Shown piece after piece: positions 17,438 through 32,673 of a DNA stretch of 64,000 bases (the first letter of the stretch is position 1; every line of letters starts with the position of its first letter). The stretch covers positions 1-64,000 of the forward strand of contig NZ_JADNHZ010000009.1 in NCBI RefSeq assembly GCF_015554145.1, written 5' to 3'. The notes below the pieces were generated by a model. It was not told the DNA's origin. It worked only from the letters and a program-made list of their open reading frames with translations, and searched no databases. The DNA comes from Collinsella aerofaciens (GTDB lineage: Bacteria > Actinomycetota > Coriobacteriia > Coriobacteriales > Coriobacteriaceae). The translations under genes and the position numbers were made by a program.

Positions 17438-17489
17438 TCATTGGGGGACGTTCTTGTTTGACTGGTCGTTTAAGAATGTCCCCAATGAC
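17437..17489. repeat. REP-like palindrome after ATPase 2
   Basis: GTCATTGGGGGACGTTCTT pairs with AAGAATGTCCCCAATGAC. It is related to the strings at 26404, 28041 and 33978, and may also terminate the ATPase transcript. Confidence 0.7.
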
Positions 17490-24197: not shown

Positions 24198-25520
24198 TTA
24201 GTCGTCCTTGTCGTCTTTCATGACAACGGTGGTCTCGGTGTGGCTGAAGGTGTCGTGCTTCTCGGTCAGGTCGAGCTCGCCGCAGTACTCGTCGGCGTGG
24301 GTGGCCTCGTTGGCCGTCTTGAGCTGGCCTACCAGTAGCACGTCTCCGATAATCACGATGATCAGCGGCGCGATGATGTTGATGAGAATGCCCTCGACAT
24401 CGAAGGTGAGGTAATCTGGATCGAAGGCGTATTCCCCCATAAAGAGAATCTGGGAGAGGATAAATCCGATCACAAAGAACAGCACCGAGGCAATAGCGAG
24501 CTTGGGCTTGGAGCAGGGGAGCTCGCCGACCAAGCGGCCGGTCTGGCCGTTCATGGCAAACAGGTAGCTCTTGCCGTTCCATGAGGTGGAAAGCATCCAG
24601 ACGGGGAACAGGGCGTAGTCGCTGTCTTCCCAGGTGTAGTCGAGCTGCTTGCTTTCGACCGTGGCATCGTCGTATTCGTCGACGACGGTCTCGCGCAGGG
24701 CCGAGATCGTGCTCTCCTCCATGCGGCGCTCGGCGCGCGCCTTGCACGTCTCGCAATCCTCATCGTAGCGGTTGGCGATGTAACCGGGCATGTAGGCGAC
24801 CGAGAACGGGCGCAGAGCCTCGTAATCAAACGGCTCGATGGCATCCATATGGCCGTCGGGCATCTTGGTCGATCCATCAACGGGCACGCGCTTAAACGAG
24901 ATATTGCCCTTGCGATAGGCATCGTAGTGGTCGGTGGTCGTGACGGTGCGGTCGGATTCCTCGGTCACGGTCTCGTTGGTCGCGTCAAAGTACACTTCGC
25001 CGTCAACGCGGGCGCCGTAGAGCCAAAACGGCACGTAGACGCCTTGAACCTCGTCGATGTGGTTGCCGGTGATAAAGCTCTTGGGTAGCAAGATCTTGCC
25101 CTTGTAATGCTCCTTGAGCGCCGCCAGCGCGTCGTCGCGCTCGAGCTTAAACGGAATCACCAGGTCGGGGGAGAAGTCTCCCGAGAGCTGGCCGGGTGCC
25201 ACGGCGGAGTTGCCGCAGTAGGGACAGGTGGTAACGGCGACCGTGCCGTCCGAGACCAGCTCGGCGCCGCACGACGAGCAGATATAGCCGGCGTTTTGGG
25301 CAAGCTCCTGTACCGCGTCGTCGACAGCGGGCTTGGACGCCGTGGCCGCGGCGTCGGCTTTGGCATCCGCCTTGCCCTGGCGCTCGCGATAGAGAGCCTC
25401 GACCTCTTCGACTTCAAAGCGCGAATCGCAGTAGTCGCAGACGAGCTTTTGCTCGGCGCTGGCAAAGTGAAGGGGGCCGCCACACGCAGGGCACTGATAG
25501 TTGACGCTCTCGAAGGCCAT
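24198..25520 (-). CDS. TFIIB-type zinc-ribbon membrane protein
   Basis: A 440-residue protein. Two N-terminal zinc ribbons (CPACGGPLHFASAEQKLVCDYC at about 10-31 and CSSCGAELVSDGTVAVTTCPYC at about 81-102) precede a mainly beta region with FWLYGARVDGEVYFDATNE. A third Cys pair is in DEDCETCKARAERRM. Near residue 340, LAIASVLFFVIGFILSQILF and ILINIIAPLIIVIIGDVLLV are two membrane helices. An acidic C-terminal tail ends KDDKDD. Similar proteins are often misannotated as primosomal N' because of the zinc ribbon, and no helicase motifs are present here. The RBS is AAAGGA. It sits between a DUF4428 protein and an SPFH protein in one operon. Confidence 0.8.
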   Translation of the reverse strand: MAFESVNYQCPACGGPLHFASAEQKLVCDYCDSRFEVEEVEALYRERQGKADAKADAAATASKPAVDDAVQELAQNAGYICSSCGAELVSDGTVAVTTCPYCGNSAVAPGQLSGDFSPDLVIPFKLERDDALAALKEHYKGKILLPKSFITGNHIDEVQGVYVPFWLYGARVDGEVYFDATNETVTEESDRTVTTTDHYDAYRKGNISFKRVPVDGSTKMPDGHMDAIEPFDYEALRPFSVAYMPGYIANRYDEDCETCKARAERRMEESTISALRETVVDEYDDATVESKQLDYTWEDSDYALFPVWMLSTSWNGKSYLFAMNGQTGRLVGELPCSKPKLAIASVLFFVIGFILSQILFMGEYAFDPDYLTFDVEGILINIIAPLIIVIIGDVLLVGQLKTANEATHADEYCGELDLTEKHDTFSHTETTVVMKDDKDD

Positions 25521-25544
25521 GATCGGTCCTTTCTGCGCCGGGGA

Positions 25545-26282
25545 CTATGCGCCGATGGCGCCGCCGCAGTATTCGCAGCGCCCACTGGCATCGGGAATCG
25601 TGGTTGCACCACAGAAGGGACAGGTGACTGCAGTCTTGGGAGCCTTGGCGGCCGCGACGCTATCGCGCGTCTCCTGGCGCAGCTGCACCAGCGCGTCGCG
25701 GACTTCGGTTGCCTGGCGCTTGGCCTCGCGGTACTCAACGGATCCGCGCTGCTCGATGGTGGAGTCGTTCACGCGCAGGCCGATCTCGGTAAAGTACGGC
25801 GTGTTGACGTGGATGGTCAGGTTAAAGTCGTAATCCAAGTCGTAGCGCGGCGGATCATAGCTCTTGCGCTCGCCGTCCTTGGTCTCGCGATAGACCTCGG
25901 TCCGATGCTCGTCGATGTCCATGTCGCAGCCGAGTACCTGCGAAAACTCGATGATGTCGGGGTTGGCGTCGCGCCAGCGGCTCTGCGAGGTAATGATCAG
26001 CTGGCCCGCGTCCTCGTCGAGCATGATGTTGGTGCGTCCGGCAGAAAGCGTGCGCGTGGGGTTGAACGACGCCAGGCGTTCGGCGTTGGCCTCGCGGTAG
26101 GCGAGCTGCTCGCGGATGTCGTCTGCGGTGCTGGAGCGCCAGCCGCTAAAGAAGGGGGAGAGCTTGCCGGCGCACTCTTTGCACAGGTAGCCTTCGTTGA
26201 TCTTGGTCTTTCCCAAAAGACCCAGCTCGGTACCGCAAATCGCGCACTCTTTCTTCTCGAACATCTTGTCAAAGAAGCCCAT
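25545..26282 (-). CDS. DUF4428-domain zinc-ribbon protein
   Basis: A 245-residue soluble protein, first gene of the operon. The N-terminal treble-clef-like ribbon is ECAICGTELGLLGKTKINEG followed by YLCKECAGKLSPFF (about 12-45), the DUF4428 signature. A central domain (about 70-185) has LASFNPTRTLSAGRTNIMLD and IHVNTPYFTEIGLRVNDSTI. A C-terminal zinc ribbon has CPFCGATTIPDASGRCEYCG. GGGAGG lies 6 nt before the start. Genes for DUF4428, zinc-ribbon membrane and SPFH proteins commonly travel together, which suggests one complex, but the role is unknown. Confidence 0.8.
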   Translation of the reverse strand: MGFFDKMFEKKECAICGTELGLLGKTKINEGYLCKECAGKLSPFFSGWRSSTADDIREQLAYREANAERLASFNPTRTLSAGRTNIMLDEDAGQLIITSQSRWRDANPDIIEFSQVLGCDMDIDEHRTEVYRETKDGERKSYDPPRYDLDYDFNLTIHVNTPYFTEIGLRVNDSTIEQRGSVEYREAKRQATEVRDALVQLRQETRDSVAAAKAPKTAVTCPFCGATTIPDASGRCEYCGGAIGA

Positions 26283-26403
26283 GGCTGCCTCCCATCAACT
26301 GGTAGCGTGTGTCACTTTTGATGATGGGTGAGTGCGCGGCCTTTCACGATACCCAAGCGGCTCAAGAAGTCTCCACAACTGGGACACATGGCCCATTTTG
26401 GGC

Positions 26404-26508
26404 AGTCATCGGGGACGTTCTTAAACGACTAGTCGCCGGGGACACTCTTTGCCAAAGGGTGGCACTTGGGGACGTTCCTTTCTGCCGGCACCTGGGGACA
26501 CTCCTTGT
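26404..26508 (+). repeat. REP-like dispersed repeat, two units
   Basis: Unit 1 is GTCATCGGGGACGTTCTTAA followed by CGCCGGGGACACTCTTTGCC. Unit 2 is GGCACTTGGGGACGTTCC followed by TGCCGGCACCTGGGGACACT. Unit 1 matches 28041; unit 2 matches 34120 and 48937. Confidence 0.75.
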
Positions 26509-26687: not shown

Positions 26688-28016
26688 ATGCTCAAGCGTA
26701 AAATAATCGAGAAAATTGAAAGCTGGAAACAGACTAAAACCGGGCAGGGACTGCTTATTACCGGTGCTCGACAAGTTGGCAAAACAAGCGCTGTCGAGCA
26801 GTTCGCCCGTGACAACTATAGAAGCTTCCTGAAAATCGACTTCGTGGAGAGACCCGACGCGGTCGAGCTCATAGGGGAGGCAAGGAGCCTCGATGACCTC
26901 ATTGTGAGAATCACCGCACTGGCTTCATCGCCCATCGCTTCGGATACAAAGACGCTTCTGTTTTTTGATGAGGTGCAGCGTTGCGGAGACGCCATCACCT
27001 GGATGCGTTATCTTGCGCAAGACGATCGTTTCGATGTCATTTACTCCGGCTCCATGCTCGGGATTGAGGCGTTCCATTTTCGGTCGTTGCCGGTAGGTAC
27101 TATCGATATCCTCGAGATGTTTCCCATGGATTTCGAGGAATTCTCCTGGGCTCTGGGAGTCGACGAATCATTATGGGATGTCGTTCGTGCCTGTTATCGC
27201 AAACGGGAACAAGTGCCTCCGTTTATTCATGAACGGTTGATCGAGACGTATTATCGGTATGTCCTTGTGGGTGGCATGCCTGAGGCCGTTCAGCTGTTCG
27301 TCTCAACTCATGATACACAGGCGATGCGCGCTCGTCAGCAGGGCATTCTCGAAGCATATCGCGCAGATATCGCACGGTACGCCGAAGCCCCCGCGCATGC
27401 TCAACGGATCAGGACGATCTACGATGCCATGCCCGCGCAGCTCAATAAAGAGAACAAGCGCTTTCTCGTTACCGGGATAGACAAGCGGAAACGATTTTTG
27501 GATTTGCAGCCTGATTTTGACTGGCTTGTTAATGCGGGCGTTGCGATCCCGGTTAAGAGGGTGAGCGAGCCCATGTTCCCCTTGGGTCTCTCGCGGGAAG
27601 ACAGTTTTTTCAAGTTCTACCTGAGCGATGTGGGGCTGCTGTTCTCTACTTTTTCTCCCGCTGATGTCGAGGCCATTGTTGCGCAGCGGGAATCGATCAA
27701 CTTTGGGCAGGCTTTTGAGAATGCGGTCGCCCAGGAGCTGCGCGCATGCGGCTACTCTTCGTTGTTCTACTTTAACGCGGCCAAGGTTGGAGAAGTAGAT
27801 TTTATTATCGAGGATAAGCGGAGCCCCGTCGTTTTGCCTATCGAGGTCAAATCGGGTAGGTACAGCACAAAGCACGTTGCCCTCGATCGCCTGATGAGCG
27901 TTGAAAACTATGGATTGGCTCGGGCGGTCGTGCTTCACCGGGACAACGTGGTGGATGGAAAGGCGATATTGTATTTGCCCCTATATATGGCGGGCCTGCT
28001 AAAAGAAATGCCATAG
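26688..28016 (+). CDS. AAA ATPase with C-terminal DUF4143 (COG1373 family)
   Basis: A 442-residue protein. Walker A is GARQVGKTS (about 25-33) and Walker B TLLFFDEVQRC (about 87-97). The C-terminal DUF4143 domain contains FENAVAQELRACG and a PD-(D/E)xK-like pattern, VGEVDFIIE then VLPIEVKSG, where Asp, Glu and Lys line up with nuclease-fold residues. Such genes are widespread, often singletons and often horizontally acquired. No function is established for the family. RBS GGGAGG precedes ATG 26688. Base composition is lower in GC than the flanks, with REP-like repeats on both sides (26404 and 28041), so the gene looks like an inserted unit. Confidence 0.88.
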   Translation: MLKRKIIEKIESWKQTKTGQGLLITGARQVGKTSAVEQFARDNYRSFLKIDFVERPDAVELIGEARSLDDLIVRITALASSPIASDTKTLLFFDEVQRCGDAITWMRYLAQDDRFDVIYSGSMLGIEAFHFRSLPVGTIDILEMFPMDFEEFSWALGVDESLWDVVRACYRKREQVPPFIHERLIETYYRYVLVGGMPEAVQLFVSTHDTQAMRARQQGILEAYRADIARYAEAPAHAQRIRTIYDAMPAQLNKENKRFLVTGIDKRKRFLDLQPDFDWLVNAGVAIPVKRVSEPMFPLGLSREDSFFKFYLSDVGLLFSTFSPADVEAIVAQRESINFGQAFENAVAQELRACGYSSLFYFNAAKVGEVDFIIEDKRSPVVLPIEVKSGRYSTKHVALDRLMSVENYGLARAVVLHRDNVVDGKAILYLPLYMAGLLKEMP

Positions 28017-28040
28017 ATGAAGGGTTGAGAGCTCTGGGGT

Positions 28041-28090
28041 AGTCATTGGGGACGTTCTTAAACGACTGGTCGCCGGGGACACTCTTTGCC
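28041..28090 (+). repeat. REP-like dispersed repeat after the DUF4143 ATPase
   Basis: GTCATTGGGGACGTTCTTAA, ACGACTGGTCGCCGGGGACA, CTCTTTGCC: matches unit 1 at 26404 at nearly every base. The ATPase gene lies between these two direct repeats. Confidence 0.8.
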
Positions 28091-28244
28091 GAGCAAGCAG
28101 TCCACGTCGTGCTCCTTCTGGGACAGACGGCTCAAAAACGCTGCACGCCGTGGACTACTGGGGTCAAATTCGCGGCATTTCGAGCTTGGCTTCGTTATCG
28201 GGACTGATTCTTTATTAAAATTGAAATCCAAACAGTTGGGCGGC

Positions 28245-28256
28245 GGGGGGGGGGGG
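28245..28256 (+). promoter_or_regulatory. G12 homopolymer at the ribosome-binding position of the LuxR gene
   Basis: Twelve consecutive G lie 4 nt before ATG 28261 (tract, ATTC, ATG). No other Shine-Dalgarno sequence is present, so the tract itself must pair with 16S rRNA. Slipped-strand length change would alter SD spacing and promoter geometry. Confidence 0.7.
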
Positions 28257-28260
28257 ATTC

Positions 28261-29805
28261 ATGAGAGGCATGGGAGACACAGCCGCATACTTACGTCGGG
28301 GCATTCGGGAGATTATATGCCTAGCGCTGTTCTATTTTACGTATTTGGCTGGCGAGTATCTTTTTGACGTGCGCGTTGCCGAGTTTGTGCCGCCGAGCGA
28401 GGTCGTTGTCTACGAGAGCTTCATCGTCGGCGCGAGCGCAATCGGCTTTCTTGTGCGTCCCCTTCTGTACTACCGCCGTTCCCGTGCGATCGATACGACA
28501 AGCGACATCGCGGGCGTGTTGCTGGCATCGGCGTTGCTGCTGTTGATGATGGCGGCTCAATTTGAGATGCTCATTGCCGGCGGGTTGCTGACGTTCTGCA
28601 CACTGGGCTACTGCGGATCGACCGCCCATGCCAACTTTGCGCGACGCTTTGCACGGACGCCGTATTTGGCGCGCGCGGCGGCGCTTTCGTATGCCCTGGG
28701 CGTTCTGGTGCAGGTGCTCAACCATATGGTGATGCCCGCGGGGATTCCGCAACAGTTTGTTCTTGTTGCCTGTGCGGTTGTGCAGGTGGCGCTGCTCCAC
28801 GACGCTCGTCGTGCCAAGCTGCGCGGTGAATCTGAGCCTGGGCGCGAGTCCGATATCGCCGAGCTTTCGGTGGATGCGTCGGAATTTGGCGCCAAATGGC
28901 AAGACGATTCTGAATCAACGGCGGCTTTTCGGCGCGCCGTGGTGCGTTTGACGGTCGCAACCGCCTGTCTTGCTGGCGTGTTTGCCGCCCTCAACGCGGG
29001 GCTCACGACCTCGCACGCCGCCGGGGCCATCGACTTGGGCGATTGGCCGCGCTTGCTGATGGGCGTGAGCGCTCTAGTCGCCGGCGCCCTATTTGACCTG
29101 CACGGTCGTTCGTATATGAACATCACCATGACTTGCACTGCCATGTTGTCCACGCTTTCGTTCTTTGTCTTGCTCATCGACGGCAATGGCGGCAATGCGC
29201 TTGCGGCCATGGCGATTTTCTATCTGGGTTCGGGCTTCTTCGTGGTGTTTTTCACGACGAAATTTGCTGCCATTTCGGTTTATGCGCACTGGTCGTATCT
29301 GTGGCCGTGCATGGGTCGTGTCATCAGCAACGTTTGCGCGATGCTCGTGACGGCGCCGGCGGTGGCGATTGTCTCGAGCCAGAACGTGCTGCTGGCGGTG
29401 AGTGCGGTGCTCGTGCTGTTTGTGGGCATTGCGATTTCGCTGCTGGGGCAGTCTGGGCATCGGACCGATGACGCTGCGGCGCCCGGCGAGCTGGCGTTTG
29501 CTGCCGATGATCTTGGTGCGGACCGCGCGTCTGCTCAGAGCGAGCCCGATTTCGCGGAGGTTCCGGAGCTCACGCTCGGCGAGCGGCTCGATGCCTTTGT
29601 CGCCGCCTTTGAGCTTACAGAGCGCGAGCGCGATATTTTGGAGGCCTTGGTCGCATCGCACGAGAGCGTTCAGGACATCGCCGCGAAGCTCTTCCTTTCG
29701 CGCTCCACGCTCTACCGCCATATCGCCTCGATCAATAAAAAGACCGGTGCCGAGTCGCGCGTGGCCCTTATCAATTTCTTCTGGTCTTGGACGCCAAATG
29801 ACTAG
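28261..29805 (+). CDS. LuxR-family regulator with 12-helix membrane N-terminus
   Basis: A 514-residue protein. Residues about 15-400 are hydrophobic, with roughly 12 predicted helices (for example GVLLASALLLLMMAAQFEML and SAVLVLFVGIAISLLG) arranged like an MFS transporter. A linker of about 60 residues leads to a C-terminal LuxR HTH: LTERERDILEALVASHESVQ, then DIAAKLFLSRSTLYRHI and INKKTG. Such membrane-tethered LuxR proteins are a hallmark of Coriobacteriia, often one per metabolic gene cluster. No receiver domain. It is monocistronic. The start follows a G12 tract, which may make expression phase-variable. The ligand and target are unknown; mgtA is the nearest neighbour but convergent. Confidence 0.88.
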   Translation: MRGMGDTAAYLRRGIREIICLALFYFTYLAGEYLFDVRVAEFVPPSEVVVYESFIVGASAIGFLVRPLLYYRRSRAIDTTSDIAGVLLASALLLLMMAAQFEMLIAGGLLTFCTLGYCGSTAHANFARRFARTPYLARAAALSYALGVLVQVLNHMVMPAGIPQQFVLVACAVVQVALLHDARRAKLRGESEPGRESDIAELSVDASEFGAKWQDDSESTAAFRRAVVRLTVATACLAGVFAALNAGLTTSHAAGAIDLGDWPRLLMGVSALVAGALFDLHGRSYMNITMTCTAMLSTLSFFVLLIDGNGGNALAAMAIFYLGSGFFVVFFTTKFAAISVYAHWSYLWPCMGRVISNVCAMLVTAPAVAIVSSQNVLLAVSAVLVLFVGIAISLLGQSGHRTDDAAAPGELAFAADDLGADRASAQSEPDFAEVPELTLGERLDAFVAAFELTERERDILEALVASHESVQDIAAKLFLSRSTLYRHIASINKKTGAESRVALINFFWSWTPND

Positions 29806-29904: not shown

Positions 29905-32673
29905 CTACAGCAGCTCGCCGTGGCGGGCGATGTAGCGGCGCTTTGCTAGTTGGGTGAGCGCGATGTAGGCGGTAACGATGCCGATGAGCAGCGCGAAAAA
30001 GCTCGCGGGCAGCGCCATGAGGCCCAGTGCATCGGCGATGGGGCTTGCCGGCAGCCAGGTGACGAGCGCCAAGCCCAGCACGGTGAGCGCGCACAACGCG
30101 GGCGCGGCGTGGTCGCGCGGGCTCGGCAGGCGCGGGGAGCGCAGCATGTGGATCACGAGCGTCTGCGACCACATGGACTCAACGAACCAACCGCTCTGAA
30201 AGAGCGCAGCAAAGGTCGCCATACCTGCGACGTCGCCCGCGGCGGCAAGCTCGGACCAGCTTGCGCCCACGGCGGCGGGGCATACCACAAAGAAGAGCGC
30301 GGCAAAGGTCACAATGTCAAACAGCGAGCTCACGGGGCCCAGCTCAAGCATAAAGCCCTTGATGGACGCGGTGTCCCAGGTGCGCGGACGGGCAGTCCAG
30401 GCGTCATCGACGGTGTCCCACGGCAGTGCGATGCACACGATTTCGTAGACCAGCGACAGCAGTACCAGCTGCAGGGCGCTCATGGGCAAAAACGGCAAGA
30501 ACAGGCTCGCGACGGTCACGGACAGTACGTTGCCAAAGTTGGAGCTCACCGTGGTCTTGAGGTACTTGAGCAGGTTGCCGTAGGTGCGGCGGCCTTCGAT
30601 GATGCCGCGCTCGAGCACGCCCAGGTCCTTCTGGAGCAAGATGATATCGGCGGATTCCTTGGCGATGTCGACGGCGGAGTCGACCGAGATGCCGCAGTCG
30701 CTTGCGCGCATGGCGGCGGCGTCGTTGATGCCGTCGCCCATAAAGCCTACGGTGTGACCGAGCAGCTCGCGCATGACGCGCACCAGGCGCGCCTTCTGCA
30801 GCGGCGAGAGTTTGGCAAAGAGATGGGTTTTCTCGGCACGCTCGGCAAGCTCTGCGTCGTCGAGCGCATCGATCTCGGAGCCGAGCAAAACGTTGCTCGC
30901 GTCGATACCGATCTGCTCGCAGACGGTGGCGGCCACGCGGTCGTTGTCGCCGGTCAGGACCTTGACCGCTACGCCCTTGGCCTCGAGGGTGGCGACGGCG
31001 CCCGCGGCACTTGCTTTGGGCGGATCGAGGAAGGCCAAAAAGCCCATCAGCACCATGTCGCACTCGTCGGCGATGCCAAACTCGCCCACGCAGCGCGGAT
31101 TGGTCTTCTGCGCCACGGCAATCACGCGCAGGCCCTCGGCGTTGAGCCCGGCGACCTGCTTGCGAATCTGGGCGAGCTCCTCGTCGGCGAGCGGTTGGAC
31201 GATACCGCTGACCTCGACAAAGGAGCAGATCTCGAGCATTTCCTCGGCAGCTCCCTTGGTAACCATCTGGGTTTTGCCTTGGGCGTCGGCGACAACTACG
31301 CTCAGGCGACGGCGCGAGAAATCGAAGGGCACCTCGTCGACCTTGGTATAGCGGTCACGCAGGCTCTGGCCCAGCATGGCATCGGGTGCGACGGTCGAGG
31401 GCGTCACGTCGGCACGGTCGATGACGGCCAGGTCGATAAGGTTTTTGAGGCCGGTCTGGAAGAAGCTGTTCAAAAACGCATGGCGCAGCACACGTGCGTC
31501 CTCGTTGCCGTCGGTGTTGAGGTAGCGCTCGAGCACGATGCGGTCTTCGGTGAGGGTGCCGGTCTTGTCACAGCACAGGACGTCCATGGCACCCAGGTTT
31601 TGGATCGCCGGCAGCTCCTTGACGATTACCTGGCGACGGGCGAGGTCCTTGGCGCCCTGCGACAGGCTCGTGGTCACGATGACGGGAAGCATCTGCGGCG
31701 TGATGCCCACAGCCACGCTCGTGGCGAACAGCAACGCGTCGATGACGTTGCCCTTGGTGGCGGCGTTGATGGTAAAGACGACCGGCGCCATAACGAGCAT
31801 GAGGCGTACGAGCAACATGGAGACACTCGAGACACCGCGGTCAAACGCGCTCTTCTCGCCGCGCCCGTTGAGCATCTTGGCGATGCCGCCCAGGTAGGTG
31901 TCCGAGCCGGTGGCAACGACAAGCGCCATGGCGGTGCCGTTTTGCACGGAGGTGCCGGTAAAGACGATGTTCTTGCAGGCAGAGAGCGGCAGCGCGGAGC
32001 CGTCGGCACCCTCGACGACGGTGATAGCGGCGGTCTTCTCGACGGCCTCGCTCTCGCCCGTGAGTGCCGACTCGATCACAAACAAGTCGCGCGCGGTGAT
32101 GATGCGGGCGTCGGCCGGCACCATATCGCCGGCAGAGAGGCGAATCATATCGCCGGGGACGAGCTCGTCGAAGGGGATCTCGAGATGCTCGTCGTTGCGC
32201 AGGGCGCAGCAGGTGTTGGAGACCAGGTCCTTGAGGGCCTCGGCTGCATTGCCGCTGCGGGCTTCCTGGATAAACTTCATGCCGCCCGATACCAGCAGCA
32301 TGATGCCGATGACGATGACCGTGGAGGGGTCACGCTGCAGCTCGGGCACGGCGAGCACGTCGATGTAGAGCGAGACCAGTGCGAGGGCGGCGAGGATGCC
32401 AGCGAAGGGATCGACGAACGCGTCGGCGATGCGGCGGGCGAGCGTCTTGGTCGGCGCTTCGATGGTGTTGGGGCCGACGGCGCTCAGGCGCTCGGCGGCG
32501 TGCTCGGCGGTGAGGCCGTTTGCCGTGGCGTCAAGCAGTACGAGAGTGTCCTCAGCACAATGGGTGGCGGCGAATATGGTGTTCTTGGACAGGCCGGCGT
32601 GGGCGGCAGGGCGCGCCGTGCGGCGGCGCTTGGAGATAGCTTCGAGTACCGTAGCGGTTTTGAGCATCAGCAT
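29905..32673 (-). CDS. mgtA: Magnesium-translocating P-type ATPase
   Basis: A 922-residue P-type ATPase of the IIIB class that imports Mg2+ using ATP. Phosphorylation motif CCDKTGTLTED is near residue 378; the actuator TGESEAVEK near 198; the hinge GDGINDAAAMRASDCGISVD near 650. Ten membrane helices are expected, with a C-terminal set LVLLSLVYEIVCIALPWDTV ending in LAKRRYIARHGELL. Motif DPSTVIVIGIMLLVSGGMKF fits MgtA/MgtB. RBS AAGGAGG. The 5' leader holds a hairpin and T7 run plus a palindrome copy. I found no recognisable M-box riboswitch. Confidence 0.95.
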   Translation of the reverse strand: MLMLKTATVLEAISKRRRTARPAAHAGLSKNTIFAATHCAEDTLVLLDATANGLTAEHAAERLSAVGPNTIEAPTKTLARRIADAFVDPFAGILAALALVSLYIDVLAVPELQRDPSTVIVIGIMLLVSGGMKFIQEARSGNAAEALKDLVSNTCCALRNDEHLEIPFDELVPGDMIRLSAGDMVPADARIITARDLFVIESALTGESEAVEKTAAITVVEGADGSALPLSACKNIVFTGTSVQNGTAMALVVATGSDTYLGGIAKMLNGRGEKSAFDRGVSSVSMLLVRLMLVMAPVVFTINAATKGNVIDALLFATSVAVGITPQMLPVIVTTSLSQGAKDLARRQVIVKELPAIQNLGAMDVLCCDKTGTLTEDRIVLERYLNTDGNEDARVLRHAFLNSFFQTGLKNLIDLAVIDRADVTPSTVAPDAMLGQSLRDRYTKVDEVPFDFSRRRLSVVVADAQGKTQMVTKGAAEEMLEICSFVEVSGIVQPLADEELAQIRKQVAGLNAEGLRVIAVAQKTNPRCVGEFGIADECDMVLMGFLAFLDPPKASAAGAVATLEAKGVAVKVLTGDNDRVAATVCEQIGIDASNVLLGSEIDALDDAELAERAEKTHLFAKLSPLQKARLVRVMRELLGHTVGFMGDGINDAAAMRASDCGISVDSAVDIAKESADIILLQKDLGVLERGIIEGRRTYGNLLKYLKTTVSSNFGNVLSVTVASLFLPFLPMSALQLVLLSLVYEIVCIALPWDTVDDAWTARPRTWDTASIKGFMLELGPVSSLFDIVTFAALFFVVCPAAVGASWSELAAAGDVAGMATFAALFQSGWFVESMWSQTLVIHMLRSPRLPSPRDHAAPALCALTVLGLALVTWLPASPIADALGLMALPASFFALLIGIVTAYIALTQLAKRRYIARHGELL

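Follow-up and report, generated by a model that had tools for sequence, protein, structure and literature searches.

A G-Tract That Differs in Length Between Collinsella Species at the Shine-Dalgarno Position of a Membrane LuxR-Type Regulator Gene

A Membrane LuxR-Type Regulator Preceded by Twelve Gs

The window analyzed here, by which we mean the whole stretch of 64,000 nucleotides, contains a gene for a membrane LuxR-type transcriptional regulator that is preceded by an uninterrupted run of 12 Gs, the local order being GGGCGGC-G12-ATTC-ATG. The features of the locus are as follows.

28216..28221, + strand: putative -10 element TAAAAT, inferred from its conservation (17 of the 18 aligned leaders have TA[AG]AAT and one has GAAAAT)
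28222..28224, + strand: in-frame TGA stop 5' of the ATG, with no start codon before 28261 at G12 (open frame of 526 codons)
28228..28260, + strand: inferred mRNA leader of ~33 nt, placed by its distance to the conserved -10 element and including the tract
28245..28256, + strand: G12 tract at the Shine-Dalgarno (SD) position, read from the sequence; its homologue in 14 other species is a GGGGG that does not vary
28257..28260, + strand: ATTC spacer from tract to start codon (4 nt; 5-6 nt in relatives)
28261..29805, + strand: open reading frame of the membrane LuxR-type regulator, 514 aa, with start codon ATG at 28261-28263
28309..29442, + strand: membrane region with multiple helices, residues 17-394 (10 segments exceed the Kyte-Doolittle hydropathy cut-off; a low-confidence model also shows helices)
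29614..29778, + strand: LuxR/GerE helix-turn-helix (HTH), residues 452-506 (PF00196, E=1.4e-9; pLDDT ~73-84)

The regulator had been called a membrane LuxR protein in a first-pass annotation of this DNA, and this identity is well founded, as a C-terminal GerE/LuxR HTH is combined with at least 10 strongly hydrophobic helices, counted by a Kyte-Doolittle hydropathy cut-off rather than by a dedicated topology predictor. The HTH is the only confidently modelled part of the protein, the membrane part being of low confidence (mean pLDDT 42.7). With this architecture the regulator fits the 10-12-TM LuxR family of the Coriobacteriia, judging from its sequence. The family members DadR, CadR, and HcdR are of the same class, with a C-terminal LuxR HTH that follows a long multi-helix membrane domain (PMC9734109), but the regulator described here, unlike these three, has no neighbouring catabolic enzyme. 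Its gene lies between an AAA_14/DUF4143 gene on one side and a convergent gene for a magnesium P-type ATPase on the other.

Orthologues are present in 18 Collinsella genomes (that of the window and 17 others), with a more distant relative of 46% identity in one further genome, while no copies were found in viral contigs and no members of the regulator family outside the genus at E<=1e-80. The named matches to the regulator are from Collinsella, several of them from C. aerofaciens, and a search of genome contigs for more copies of the gene returned mostly the same species. The best explanation is that the source organism is a Collinsella near C. aerofaciens and that the regulator is one with 10-12 helices. 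Comparison with relatives gives dN/dS values of 0.20-0.28, and the gene is therefore under purifying selection.

In most relatives the orthologue of the regulator (28261-29805) reaches an identity of only ~75-77%, the neighbouring regions (24198-26282 and 29905-32673) being ~95% identical, and its dS is 2-3 times that of the adjacent ATPase; the locus may carry divergent alleles or have recombined. A 54-nt direct repeat, with copies that are 94% identical at 26400-26453 and 28037-28090, flanks the AAA_14/DUF4143 gene (26688-28016), and there is a degenerate third copy at 17462. As the AAA_14/DUF4143 gene was found only at this locus in the window and in one other genome (G011), at 99.8% identity, a recent insertion just 5' of the regulator is suggested.

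Start Codon and Probable Shine-Dalgarno Role of the Tract

Whether the tract lies in a leader or in coding sequence depends on the start codon, and the first-pass annotation had left room for the real start lying elsewhere. The upstream frame is closed by the TGA at G12, and sequence similarity among the orthologues begins at M1, which is conserved in all 18 genomes (ATG in 17 orthologues, GTG in one). Five of these genomes have I, L, or T in place of M4, the next in-frame methionine. Taken together, the closed frame, the conservation of M1, and the variability of M4 establish ATG 28261 as the correct start.

It could nevertheless be imagined that translation begins upstream, for example at TTG 28237, and that tract length sets the reading frame, since TTG GGC GGC leads into the tract and a length of G11 or G14 would place it in the reading frame of the regulator; an out-of-frame TTG open reading frame (28086-28367) is also present. 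However, the frame is closed at G12, the TTG is unconserved (TAA in G010 and G003) and has no SD of its own, and the leader evolves as non-coding DNA, with interspecies indels, conservation starting at M1. We consider an upstream coding start through the tract highly improbable, and rule it out on the grounds of the closed frame, the unconserved TTG, and the leader indels. A role of the tract as a promoter spacer is likewise disfavoured, as 23 nt lie between the conserved -10-like element upstream and the tract, and a scan for consensus promoters gave no match; a good -35 sequence for the TAAAAT element was not found.

The tract does lie 4 nt before the ATG, as first described, and the accompanying claim that no other SD sequence exists also holds, in that the tract with the abutting GGGCGGC is the only purine-rich sequence 5' of the start codon. 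The 16S tail GGATCACCTCCTTTC is present in the genome, and the 16S 3' end contains CCTCC, with which GGGGG can pair as CCUCC (one G-U) at spacers of 4-6 nt. The features expected of an SD sequence, namely pairing with the 16S 3' end, a distance of 4-9 nt to the start codon, and conservation, are thus all found, a G-run being present in 18 of 18 leaders. The modelled SD duplex has an energy of -9.3 kcal/mol in most G5 leaders versus -14.2 to -15.0 kcal/mol in the G9-G12 leaders. Hence the proposal that G12 is the ribosome-binding region is confirmed as far as its position before a real, conserved gene is concerned, while its actual use as the SD is something that we infer.

Runs at the SD position were also seen before other Collinsella genes, which encode an N6/N4 DNA methylase (G11; L053:1-1503, genome G019), a TupA-like ATP-grasp protein (G9; L049:1515-2429, G013), and a HAD hydrolase (G10; L058:655-1503, G028).

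Tract Length Across Collinsella

The 17 other orthologues share the start codon and a conserved leader in an 18-genome alignment that extends from the -10-like element to the ATG. In 14 of the 18 leaders the SD is exactly GGGGG, followed by TTAACC, TTACC, or TTAGCC, and this G5 version shows no length change across the 14 species. The remaining four have a long tract of a different length in each species, G12 in the window, G11 in G011, and G10 and G9 in the other two, where it should be noted that one genome was compared per species and that draft assemblies can misjudge long runs by one base. G9 and G10 occur in a pair with 96.8% CDS identity and G11 and G12 in a pair with 94.2%, so that length varies between close relatives with the flanks conserved. 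The first-pass annotation had proposed comparing sister strains, and the variation it anticipated is seen here at the level of species, from which the tract appears to be unstable.

The four G9-G12 species form one clade with a support of 1.000 in an unrooted tree. As G5 is found on all other branches of that tree, expansion is indicated rather than contraction. Most simply, the Gs would be an old SD sequence, a fixed GGGGG in the ancestor, that expanded once in this one clade.

Long G-Runs and the Likelihood of Slippage

Of all G/C runs in the 2.45-Mb genome, G12 is the longest. Within the 64 kb of the window it is followed by a single G8, while C runs reach no further than C6, and 47 runs of G or C have length 5 as against just two of length 6; a plain geometric model estimated from these counts predicts ~0.01 G12 runs per window. 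Over the whole genome, on both strands, the exact runs number 10 for G7, seven for G8, 10 for G9, four for G10, and one each for G11 and G12. The counts drop steeply from 5 to 7 and are followed by a flat tail from 8 to 12, a profile that differs from chance extension. The excess in the tail is as expected for a few loci with slippage-prone runs, and G12, like the homopolymers of simple-sequence contingency loci, is long enough to slip (~8 or more) and beyond chance.

MutS (TIGR01070) was over the cut-off in none of 43 Collinsella genomes, the same search being positive in 11 of 14 named control genomes, and many of the other long G runs examined in this genome sit in genes of the phase-variation type. 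Given these two observations and the length differences within the clade, slippage at the LuxR tract is likely, and we infer that it also takes place within a population.

Among the other long runs, four genes for Flp-like pilins, recognized by the motif RGQ[SG]IIEYVL and by a weak Flp_Fap family match, have a G9 or G10 run that follows the start codon and precedes the pilin motif (L001:1501-1510 at C2:9869, L002:1501-1510 at C2:82971, L003:1501-1510 at C16:40797, and L004:996-1004 on C18). Their starts are overlapping ATGs in two frames (ATGCATG in those viewed), and hence the pilin could still be read in frame at two out of every three tract lengths, though with differing leader peptides; these pilins are probably phase-variable. 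At C18:3399 (L004:1501-1511) a G11 run puts the two halves of a D12-class adenine DNA methyltransferase in different frames; both halves match PF02086, and this looks like a phase-variable methylase that is currently out of frame. The 5' end of a gene for a bacterial sugar transferase (PF02397; C22:10576, L006:1501-1510) carries a G10 run, and G9 runs are found in putative surface proteins and in an acetyltransferase-like protein, which were assigned by reading the sequence and not by family search.

Predicted Effect of Tract Length on Translation

The inferred leader was folded with 4 to 15 Gs, with energies calculated at 37 C and with ribosome kinetics and ribosomal protein S1 ignored. The modelled anti-SD pairing rises to a plateau at 11 or more Gs (-14.2 to -14.3 kcal/mol), while the cost of opening the leader is 6.0, 5.3, 5.0, 5.5, 6.3, and 7.1 kcal/mol for G9 to G14, respectively, so that in the model without quadruplexes each G around G10-G13 alters this cost by at most 0.8 kcal/mol. 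According to these predictions, gaining or losing one G should make little difference. In addition, slippage shifts the 5' edge of the run and, whatever the tract length, keeps the 3' edge 4 nt away from the ATG, and hence a complete SD register with good spacing is present in any run of about 8 or more Gs. The first-pass annotation had envisaged on/off or graded expression of the regulator. With a constant gap to the ATG, an SD register that is kept, and small modelled changes, on/off expression is disfavoured, and graded tuning, or no effect at all, would be the more likely outcome.

The only route that we found to a strong switch is a speculative one, an RNA G-quadruplex. When quadruplexes are enabled in ViennaRNA, the G12 leader of the window and the G11 leader of G011 are each predicted to form one, unlike the G9, the G10, and all G5 leaders, and the model becomes strongly dependent on length and context. 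True phase variation, in which length would toggle translation between high and low through such a quadruplex or a different folding of the leader at the SD, has a further argument in the espR gene discussed below, where a single G in the 5'UTR alters translation. A two-tetrad quadruplex within one G run is, however, energetically uncertain and would compete with ribosome binding, and without it the one-G effect is the small one given above. We therefore regard true phase variation as unlikely.

The opposite reading is that the SD is hypermutable and neutral, a mutation bias in the absence of MutS having grown the run to lengths that have no useful effect because any 9 or more Gs work. This is what saturated SD pairing and a nearly flat opening cost would give, together with a 3' edge that lies 4-6 nt before the ATG regardless of length and the failure to detect MutS in the genus. 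Likewise, G9+ runs 3-8 nt before an ATG are, as judged by eye, not enriched in the 43 Collinsella genomes relative to a reversed control. Against it, long G runs are otherwise rare and many of those examined are in contingency-type genes, and the run is still pure in four species, although its purity over the divergence of the clade could stem from SD selection alone. Neutral tolerance is thus a possible though less probable account, and a close rival that ranks just behind a graded effect at the SD.

We propose, with somewhat more confidence than doubt, that the tract is a hypermutable SD sequence with small graded effects on the level of the regulator, and not a device for on/off phase variation. 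The ancestral leader would have had a fixed GGGGG, and on the branch to one clade the run would have become long enough for DNA polymerase to slip easily. With MutS absent from the genus, tract length may now change freely, as the lengths of 9-12 in four species suggest. With only the 5' edge shifting, the ribosome would always meet a good register, and length changes would slightly shift SD pairing and leader folding and so alter the level of the regulator in a graded manner at most. This graded effect on translation is what the folding models point to.

Comparison With Known Systems

The closest precedent is the G-tract in the espR 5'UTR of Mycobacterium tuberculosis, where one additional G raises EspR post-transcriptionally (PMC11898584). 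Both are G homopolymers in the untranslated leader of a transcription regulator, but the espR tract consists of 7 Gs located where transcription starts, is separated from the start codon by 144 nt, and works through a 5' hairpin (PMC11898584), whereas in the LuxR gene the run itself is at the SD position, 4 nt from the ATG. In espR, length changes act after transcription, via translation, and in Collinsella they would do so as well according to the folding models. In the sortase-pilus genes of Bifidobacterium breve, also an actinobacterial gut commensal, G10/G11 runs slip heavily, as measured by maximum-depth sequencing (PMC9187656). Those runs are coding and act by frameshift (PMC9187656), and in this they resemble the Collinsella pilin tracts and not the LuxR tract.

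Implications

Most of the documented homopolymer contingency tracts known to us work via frameshift or promoter spacing. Our literature search gave no direct report of tracts that are themselves the SD and no description of contingency tracts in Collinsella, an absence of reports that does not prove that none exist. More tentatively, the tract might be a clade-specific rheostat, in which a pure-G SD makes the translation rate of a sensor-regulator hypermutable, within a wider poly-G contingency system of MutS-less Collinsella that includes pilins, DNA methyltransferases, and sugar transferases. If the tract is the SD itself, the translation strength of the regulator, and hence its whole regulon, would drift in small reversible steps. 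If this is true, Collinsella, an abundant gut genus, would join the organisms with a poly-G contingency repertoire.
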